Shown here: positions 2,375 through 4,404 of the stretch, one piece after another
How the letters are laid out: every line of letters begins with the position of its first letter
How positions within the stretch are numbered: the first letter of the stretch is position 1
NCBI GenBank assembly: GCA_030431255.1
Contig: JAUIJL010000010.1
Location: 1 to 64,000, forward strand
Source of the DNA: Thermoanaerobaculia bacterium
GTDB lineage: Bacteria > Acidobacteriota > Thermoanaerobaculia > Multivoradales > J023
Length of the DNA: 64,000 nucleotides
Direction of reading: 5' to 3'
The notes under the pieces: model-generated
Databases searched by the model: none
What the model saw: only the letters and a program-made list of their open reading frames with translations
What the model was told of the DNA's origin: nothing
Program-made: the position numbers and the translations under genes

Positions 2375-3436
2375 ATGAGAACCATCCCACACTCCATCCT
2401 ACGAACCCCGATCCAAACCGCGCTCGTGGCGGCGCTGCTGATACCTGGTTTCGCCATGGCGGACGAGGAGAAGAAACCCGCGCTGGAAGGCATTCCAGTA
2501 GAGGGATTTCAACAGCTGATGCCCCGCGGCGGCATTCCCGCCTTGGTCGATCCGGAATTCGTCACCGCCGACGAAGCGAAGATTCCGGACGAGGCCTGGG
2601 TATTGGGCTTTGAGCGCGACGGCGAGTCATTCGCATACGACTTGAACCTGCTGAATCGCCACGAGGTGGTCAACCACGGAACGGAGGCCACGAAATTCGC
2701 GGCCGTTTGGTGACCGCTCGCCAACACGGCTGTCGTGTACAGCCGCACGCAGGGTGACGCCACCTACACCTTCGAGCCCAGCGGAGGGCTCCTCCACGCC
2801 GCATTGGTGATGCAGGATCGCGAGACCGACACCTATTGGTCGATCCTCACGCACGATGCCATCTACGGTGCTGAAAAAGGAGCCGAGCTGAGGCAGCTGA
2901 CAGGCTCGATGAAAACCACATTCGGGCAATGGAAGGCCCTACATCCCGAGACCAAAGTTCTTTCCGTCGAAGGCGAGCAACATGTGGAAAGCTCACCATA
3001 CGACAAATATTTCGACTCCGACGAAGGCTTCCGAGGCCTCAAAGCCGAAGATGATCGGCTCGCGGACAAAGCGGAGATTTTCGGATTTCGCATCGATGAT
3101 CGAGTGATCGCCGTCCCCCATTCGCTCTTCGAGAACGGTGGCGCTTTGATCAAGGTGGAGGATCGAAACATCTTCCTCTACCGCGAGAAAGACGACTCCC
3201 ATTACCAGGGAACCGTCGCGATGTTGATCAAGCCCCATTTCAATTTGGTCCGAAGCGACGGCGGCTGGTCCCTCTCCACGCCCGACGGCAGGGAGATCAG
3301 CTTCAAGCCGGAAAAACGGTCTTTCGGGGTGCGAGGAGCGATCACCCGTCCGCTCACGGGTTTCGACACCTTCTGGTATCAATGGAGCTTGACCAACCCC
3401 GAGACGTCGATCGTCGAGCAGGCCGCGCTGCCGTGA
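2375..3436 (+). CDS. DUF3179 domain protein with in-frame TGA, probable selenoprotein
   Basis: One reading frame runs from ATG 2375 (preceded by AAGGGGG) to TGA 3434-3436, 353 residues, interrupted only by TGA at 2711-2713 (codon 113). Residues 1-30 are an export signal ending in FAMA. The DUF3179 hallmarks follow in order: DEAWVLGFERDGESFAYDL, NRHEVVNH, AAVW-TGA-PLANTAVVYSR, then TYTFEPSGGLLHAALVMQDRETDTYWS. The family has a Cys-Pro-Leu-Cys motif exactly here, so the TGA replaces the first Cys; the second position is Ala. A perfect 7-bp hairpin (2727-2733 with 2739-2745, loop CGTGT) starts 13 bases after the TGA, fitting a bacterial SECIS. I recall public annotations naming this family '(seleno)protein' but could not check. 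The alternative is a recent nonsense mutation. It is followed at once by a zinc-ribbon gene (GTGA overlap). The biochemical function of DUF3179 is unknown to me. Confidence 0.8.
2727..2745 (+). promoter_or_regulatory. Candidate bacterial SECIS hairpin
   Basis: CGGCTGT (2727-2733) pairs perfectly with ACAGCCG (2739-2745) around the 5-nt loop CGTGT. The loop begins 20 nt after the TGA at 2711-2713 and has a G at its second position. From memory, the general bacterial SECIS model asks for a loop 16-37 nt after UGA, a 4-16 bp upper stem and a G in the first two loop bases; this hairpin meets all three. High GC makes chance hairpins common, so the call depends on the family match at the TGA. Confidence 0.55.
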
Positions 3437-3819
3437 GCACCGAGGCTAATCCGTTTACCATCAGCGAGATCGGCGAGCCCGGCTCGCTGGTGGCTGTGGC
3501 GGATTTCACCTGCCCGAAATGTGGTGAGCACAGCCGATTCTTCGCCCATCACCAAGGGCAAGACGGCTCCTTCGAATGCGCCCATTGTCGGCTGGTGATC
3601 CACATTCGGGGCACGCGTTTATCCGACTATCAAGAGCAGCTCGACGCCATCAACGCCAGCCTCGGCGATTTCACCGCCAAGGTCACCGATCGGGTCAAGA
3701 AGGCATCCCAACGATTGGGATCCACAGTGGAGGAACCCGACGAGGCCCATGACGAGACGGCCGACGACAAAAGGGCCGGTGGTCATCGGCATGGTCCCGG
3801 CTGTGGCTGTGCTCACTGA
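3433..3819 (+). CDS. Small zinc-ribbon protein with His/Cys-rich tail
   Basis: The product is 128 aa from GTG 3433, which overlaps the preceding stop (GTGA); an upstream start at 3382 would run through the end of that gene and is less likely. Residues 31-60 hold a zinc ribbon (CPKCG, then CAHC about 23 residues later). A helical middle is followed by an acidic stretch and a terminal metal-binding tail, HRHGPGCGCAH. No signal peptide is seen, so it is probably cytoplasmic. Its coupling to the DUF3179 gene and the CusF-like gene downstream suggests a shared metal or redox role, which is inference. Confidence 0.75.
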   Translation: MSTEANPFTISEIGEPGSLVAVADFTCPKCGEHSRFFAHHQGQDGSFECAHCRLVIHIRGTRLSDYQEQLDAINASLGDFTAKVTDRVKKASQRLGSTVEEPDEAHDETADDKRAGGHRHGPGCGCAH

Positions 3820-3867
3820 TCGGGCGATGGCCCGTTGAAACACTTGGATCGATTGAGGAGAATTTCC

Positions 3868-4404
3868 GTGAGACTTCAGTGGCGCAGCTCGTCTGCTTCC
3901 CGGCTGGTAACGGCCTTGATCGTGCTCTTCCTCGGCGCTTGCGGAGGAAGCAGCCCGGAATCGACCGAGGCCGCGAGCTATACGACCCGTGGCATCGTTC
4001 GACAGTTGGGCGATGGTCCCGCCCAAGAGCTGTTCATCCACCACGAGGCCATCCCAACGTTCGTCAACATCGATGGTGAGGTCCAAGGCATGGGCTCCAT
4101 GGCCATGCCCTTTCCCGTCGATGAGGCGGCTTTGCCCAGCGATCTTCAAGTCGGCGACAAGGTGAGCTTCGAATTTGAGGTGAATTGGACCGGCTCACCC
4201 CCCATGCGTCTGCTGTCGGTGGAGAAGCTACCCCCCGAGACGTTGTTGGCGTTTGAGATGCCCCAGGCCGGCGACGCTCCGGCGGAATCGTCCGAAGATC
4301 ACGGTCCCCACGAAGATCACGGTCTCCACGGAGATCACGGCCAGCACGAAGATCAAGAGCACCTCGGAGATCAAGAGCACGGCGGCTTGGGGCACAGCGG
4401 TTAG
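3868..4404 (+). CDS. CusF-like copper-binding lipoprotein with His-rich repeats
   Basis: The product is 178 aa from GTG 3868, chosen because GAGGAG lies 8 bases upstream. A signal peptide ends in a lipobox (LGAC, then GGSS), so the protein should be membrane-anchored outside the cytoplasm. Residues about 37-120 match the copper-binding CusF/PF11604 fold: TTRGIVRQL, FIHHEAIPTF, GMGSMAMPFPV and LQVGDKVSFEF; the His and paired Met residues are the usual Cu(I)/Ag(I) ligands. The C-terminal 40 residues are degenerate six-residue repeats (DHGPHE, DHGLHG, DHGQHE) encoded by 18-bp DNA repeats and rich in His and acid, typical of a metal sponge. Such proteins normally act as periplasmic copper chaperones with CusAB-type pumps or copper oxidases; none is seen nearby. 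Confidence 0.82.
   Translation: MRLQWRSSSASRLVTALIVLFLGACGGSSPESTEAASYTTRGIVRQLGDGPAQELFIHHEAIPTFVNIDGEVQGMGSMAMPFPVDEAALPSDLQVGDKVSFEFEVNWTGSPPMRLLSVEKLPPETLLAFEMPQAGDAPAESSEDHGPHEDHGLHGDHGQHEDQEHLGDQEHGGLGHSG

Follow-up and report, generated by a model that had tools for sequence, protein, structure and literature searches.

A cysteine-free DUF3179 protein predicted to carry selenocysteine at the first cysteine position of its family motif

The DUF3179 gene at positions 2375–3436 of a 64,000-nucleotide stretch of DNA from a Thermoanaerobaculia bacterium (the whole stretch is called the window here, and the gene and its features lie on its forward strand) very probably decodes an in-frame UGA as selenocysteine (Sec). 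DUF3179 (PF11376) has been listed before among predicted selenoprotein families, under the motif UxxC/T (PMC9312934, PMC13188914); what appears from sequence comparison to be novel is a Sec-only, mostly cysteine-free variant of it, UxxA. We suggest that SelA, SelD and tRNA-Sec would make Sec-tRNA, that SelB, held at a hairpin at 2727–2745, would deliver it to the UGA at 2711–2713, and that the resulting Sec113 would replace the cysteine that opens the CPLC motif of DUF3179. A first-pass annotation had read the gene as a probable selenoprotein. Its coordinates all hold, and none of the contrary findings it had named, from missing Sec machinery to relatives with ordinary cysteine and no conserved hairpin, was encountered.

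The reading frame begins at ATG 2375, 3' of a Shine-Dalgarno-like AAGGGGG (2364–2370) read directly from the sequence, meets the in-frame TGA at 2711–2713, continues for 240 sense codons and terminates at an ordinary TGA (3434–3436), giving a protein of 353 amino acids including Sec113. With TGA translated as cysteine, PF11376 matched this frame from end to end (residues 52–344, profile positions 2–292 of 292, E 1.3e-49), and the score of 169.6 bits, against a curated cut-off of 27, places the protein in DUF3179. The 240 codons of family conservation claimed for the region after the TGA are present. Sequence identity to relatives over the N-terminal domain is 42–68%, no NCBIfam model matched the protein, and no similar DNA was found in a search of a plasmid collection. 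Inspection of its own and related N-termini indicates a probable signal peptide at residues 1–29 (2375–2461), with cleavage at AMA/DE (29/30), and lipoprotein-type starts in its place in some relatives; the protein is therefore probably exported to the periplasm.

Pseudogenes and sequencing errors typically show up as one in-frame stop within a gene that is intact elsewhere, and a nonsense TGA, or a TGC or TGG misread in a draft genome of 54 contigs, has to be weighed first. A search of 59 genomes around the window's own genome led to 25 TGA-bearing matches being fetched, and TGA stood at the homologous codon in every one. In a scan of bacteria and archaea, taken at one genome per species, 58 relatives were returned and all 53 motif-bearing loci had TGA (52, plus the locus L054, which was read by hand). 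These loci span at least eight groups, namely Acidobacteriota, Gemmatimonadota, Calditrichota, KSB1, Krumholzibacteriota, Latescibacterota, Planctomycetota and Gammaproteobacteria; most relatives that carry a name in the public collection belong to Thermoanaerobaculia (Acidobacteriota). The scan used two patterns, one that included the Cys site and one taken from the C-terminal GFDTFW motif, and therefore both Cys and Sec forms could be found. Nevertheless, no Cys version (TGC or TGT) of the branch, whose motif is UPLAN, was seen among the searched relatives. TGA at the same codon in 53 independent loci, together with conservation of the 240 codons that follow it, makes a pseudogene or a sequencing error exceedingly unlikely.

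The first-pass annotation had proposed aligning homologues to see whether the TGA recurs: it does so in all close relatives, with Cys in none. It had also placed the TGA at the first Cys of CPLC, and the UGA indeed aligns with the TGC codon of CTLCG/CPLCG homologues that lack Sec. In a tree of 97 N-terminal domains, the UPLAN sequences form one supported clade (97/90) of 47 Sec members and one Ser member, a Planctomycetota relative (L100) with the sole non-Sec residue found in the clade. Over the DUF3179 family as a whole, the Sec label requires at least three changes, on the starred branches of the tree.

The host genome, a draft of 10.19 Mb, has everything that decoding of UGA as Sec would call for. 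All four genes that had been suggested for checking are present: selA (458.7 bits), selB (358.7 bits), selD (359.6 bits) and selC, the tRNA-Sec gene (72.7 bits), with the anticodon TCA (UCA) as read by ARAGORN. The selD gene (C48:70921-71844, locus L050) encodes a Sec-type selenophosphate synthetase and itself contains an in-frame TGA (TCG-U-AAKL); UxxK is the listed site of Sec-type SelD (PMC13188914). We take this second TGA as an independent sign, likewise from sequence, that UGA is read as Sec in this organism. A tRNA-Sec was found in 31 of the 33 host genomes of the wider set and in 130 of 149 genomes of the class. It was also found in 35 of the 36 class genomes with a TGA-type DUF3179 match at E <= 1e-30 (the exception, G080, is 82% complete), a figure that is weak evidence because the base rate in the class is high; the 31 of 33 is stronger.

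The frame would be equally open if UGA were read as Trp or another ordinary residue without selenium, under a reassigned code or through leaky readthrough. However, TGA terminates the window gene itself and 18 others in the set of 54 genes, so UGA still terminates and the code has not been reassigned. A reading without selenium also fits poorly with a UGA that occupies the family's Cys position and not a Trp, with the presence of the Sec machinery and a Sec-type selD, and with a covarying hairpin that it leaves unexplained. We consider such a reading very unlikely.

The putative bacterial SECIS hairpin (2727–2745) is a perfect 7-bp stem (2727–2733 paired with 2739–2745) closed by the loop CGUGU (2734–2738), with the stem beginning 13 nt and the loop 20 nt after the UGA; the perfect stem, its distance and the G-containing loop had all been correctly described in the first-pass annotation. 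Published bSECIS rules ask for a stem of 4–16 bp, a loop of 3–9 nt located 16–37 nt from the UGA, an MFE of <= -7.5 and a G within the first two loop positions (PMC13188914). The window hairpin agrees with these rules in stem, loop and spacing and, at -17.3 kcal/mol for 48 nt, in energy, which answers the proposed SECIS search. As a single sequence it is only moderately unusual: its fold energy is ordinary (z -0.68), and when the peptide was recoded synonymously 20,000 times, 1.4% of the versions gave a rule-conforming stem of at least 7 bp. The case for a SECIS element therefore rests on comparison.

That comparison used 58 distinct sequences, with positions numbered from the base after the UGA. 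Five of the seven stem pairs are formed in all 58. Pair 18-28 is CG in 50 sequences, UA in 7 and AU in one, and position 18 is the third base of an Ala or Gly codon, where a change is silent; in 8 of the 58 it and its partner have both changed. Covariation was 0.137, against 0.054 in shuffled alignments, and doubly changed cells numbered 17 against 3.1, neither value being reached in any of 500 shuffles; paired cells made up 90.4%, against 84.1% after shuffling, and sliding the stem partner lowered pairing to 21–53%. Pair 17-29, the fourth of the stem, does not form in 30 of the 58, so that roughly half of the family has a mismatch inside the stem. Comparison thus shows that the putative SECIS hairpin is maintained as RNA in the branch, with compensatory changes, where the first-pass annotation had counted the lack of a conserved hairpin in relatives as evidence against Sec. 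Other Sec branches of the class (UPLAH, UPLCH, UPSEQ, UTLCH, UPLTG and UPAIR) carry hairpins that obey the rules, their loops lying at +16 to +23, and most Cys-type DUF3179 relatives have none there. One Sec branch, UTLCH/USLCR/ULLCH (L135, L138-L142), uses another register, with an 8-bp stem and a loop 16 nt after the UGA.

Alternatively, the UGA could end a 112-residue protein, with a second protein restarting at GTG 2735, and an open reading frame with that start (2735–3436) does exist. A restart there would split a single beta sheet between strands 107–113 and 118–123 of a confident predicted model, and the residues between the UGA and the GTG (PLANTAV) are almost invariant as protein. We therefore judge two separate products very improbable, and return to a single protein containing Sec113.

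The branch motif is UPLAN (UxxA), with Ala at the second Cys position throughout; the substitution had been pointed out for the window protein, where it is Ala116. The first-pass annotation had called Sec the only redox residue of the motif, which is correct but understated, as the window protein has no Cys anywhere. The mature form of 39 out of 54 branch proteins is free of Cys, and in these an internal Se-S bond is ruled out; most of the remaining proteins have two Cys residues within the C-terminal domain, close to U+189 and U+205.

Two publications credit the DUF3179 selenoprotein to Zhang and Gladyshev 2007, in an Olavius algarvensis symbiont (PMC9312934, PMC13188914). The published form and the UPLAN branch share PF11376 and one Sec at the first position of a CxxC-like motif, but the published motif has Cys or Thr at its second conserved residue, in place of which the window protein has Ala116. 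The branch is further distinguished by Cys-free mature proteins in the proportion given above and by Sec throughout the clade except for one Ser, across at least eight bacterial groups. A 2026 review treats different Sec motifs as distinct subfamilies (PMC13188914), and by that rule UxxA counts as a new variant of the DUF3179 selenoprotein, though the branch could already be among the members of Zhang and Gladyshev 2007. Branches with UxxC and with UxxT are present elsewhere in the class.

Cys-type DUF3179 proteins (CTLCG/CPLCG), among them a paralogue in the same genome (C32:67270, locus L018), share with the window gene the domain and the HE..N residues before the Cys/Sec site. They differ from it in having a TGC codon, in retaining the second Cys and in not keeping the hairpin (3–5 of 7 pairs). 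The Cys/Sec site is occupied by Asn or Ser in three other relatives (L147, L148 and L150) and by Ala or Gly in second DUF3179 domains elsewhere; such copies are possibly non-catalytic. No function for DUF3179 was found in the literature searched, and PMC9312934 and PMC13188914 list the family without one.

The AF2 model of the protein (pLDDT 89.5) has two beta domains of similar strand order. The N-terminal domain (residues 82–186, 2618–2932; pLDDT 84.8) bears Sec113 and has a predicted Rieske-like fold without Fe-S ligands; the C-terminal domain (residues 224–346, 3044–3412) appears to be a diverged repeat of it without the Sec motif, and hhalign aligned the two over 27 columns (E 2.6e-5, probability 75%). 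When the N-terminal domain was compared with known structures by VIA, all 50 matches listed were Rieske domains, the best among those listed being 2de5_D (Z 7.8, 2.6 A, 91 residues). A Z below 8 can reflect a common arrangement. Foldseek gave no significant match of the model in the PDB (E 0.001), hhalign detected no sequence relationship to Rieske profiles (probability 0.1%), PF00355 did not match the window protein at E 10, and a sequence search for relatives of solved structure found none. Because of the low Z, the Foldseek result and the lack of a profile relation, we describe the modelled N-terminal domain as having Rieske-like topology only.

Any likeness to Rieske domains (PF00355; CarAc ferredoxin 2de5) lies in the predicted fold of the Sec-bearing domain. 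In contrast to them, this domain has no CxH...CxxH ligands for a [2Fe-2S] cluster, the window protein being devoid of Cys, and no sequence relation, and range arithmetic puts Sec off the Rieske ligands. The resemblance of CPxHG to CPLCG had raised the idea that Sec113 corresponds to the second Rieske Cys. This was rejected, as hhalign finds no relation and the aligned ranges (model 38–138, chain 4–98) place Sec113 well before the ligand loops. The register of predicted strands 98–102 and 107–113 would instead put an invariant His96 opposite Sec113, and we propose these two residues as the candidate active site of DUF3179.

Since no Cys is available in the protein, the selenium must act alone, with an outside thiol, or by binding a metal. 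We suggest that one selenolate sits where a beta-hairpin ends, opposite His96, and that its chemistry would involve an outside partner. There is nearly an even chance that this is redox chemistry, in which a selenenic acid or a mixed selenenyl-sulfide would be reset by an external thiol. A selenoprotein whose selenium and His96 bind a soft metal, copper or mercury, is also a real possibility, if short of an even one, and the missing resolving Cys speaks for it too. In L100 (7659-8885), a Planctomycetota MAG sequence, an N-terminal HMA domain is fused to a DUF3179 domain with Ser at its site, and the first metal-binding Cys of the HMA motif GMTCxxxC is TGA, followed at roughly 20 nt by its own 6-bp SECIS-like hairpin (loop CGUGA); in this protein Sec seems to have shifted into the heavy-metal domain. 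There is one such fusion, however, and a search of 59 genomes around and including the L100 host gave no second. A CusF-type copper-protein gene downstream in the window would also suit metal binding, but it is not conserved beside DUF3179. On balance, redox use of the lone selenolate appears slightly more likely than soft-metal binding.

We also considered a stronger proposal, which we think unlikely: that the branch is a Sec-obligate, Cys-free exported family whose lone selenolate, on a Rieske-like, ligand-free scaffold, performs chemistry for which Cys could not substitute. If it were true, L100, with Sec only in the fused heavy-metal domain, would indicate mercury or copper handling. To our knowledge, Cys stand-ins exist for nearly all selenoproteins; a branch that is almost always Sec and mostly Cys-free offers a natural test of what selenium does beyond sulfur. 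Standard-code annotation breaks the gene at the UGA, and a family conserved across many phyla is likely to be held in databases as two fragments.

Clustering of neighbouring ORFs, up to 8 kb around about 53 loci, gave no recurring gene as a conserved operon partner, and the window's own neighbours, a zinc-ribbon ORF and the CusF-like gene, have no counterpart in any other locus. These two lie at 3382–4404, the zinc-ribbon ORF with its start overlapping the end of the DUF3179 gene, followed by the CusF-type copper-binding protein with its His-rich tail. Upstream, positions 95–1450 encode the C-terminal portion of an Rhs/YD-repeat protein (TEN_YD-shell), whose last 110 or so residues form an unclassified tip. 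The two small ORFs after the tip (1447–1731 and 1806–2174) could be immunity genes; the first matches the EF-Tu C-terminal domain below threshold (E 0.0025). Between these ORFs and the DUF3179 gene lies a short Rhs-like remnant (2205–2340, RFGARDYDPEI), which suggests a trace of cassette rearrangement.
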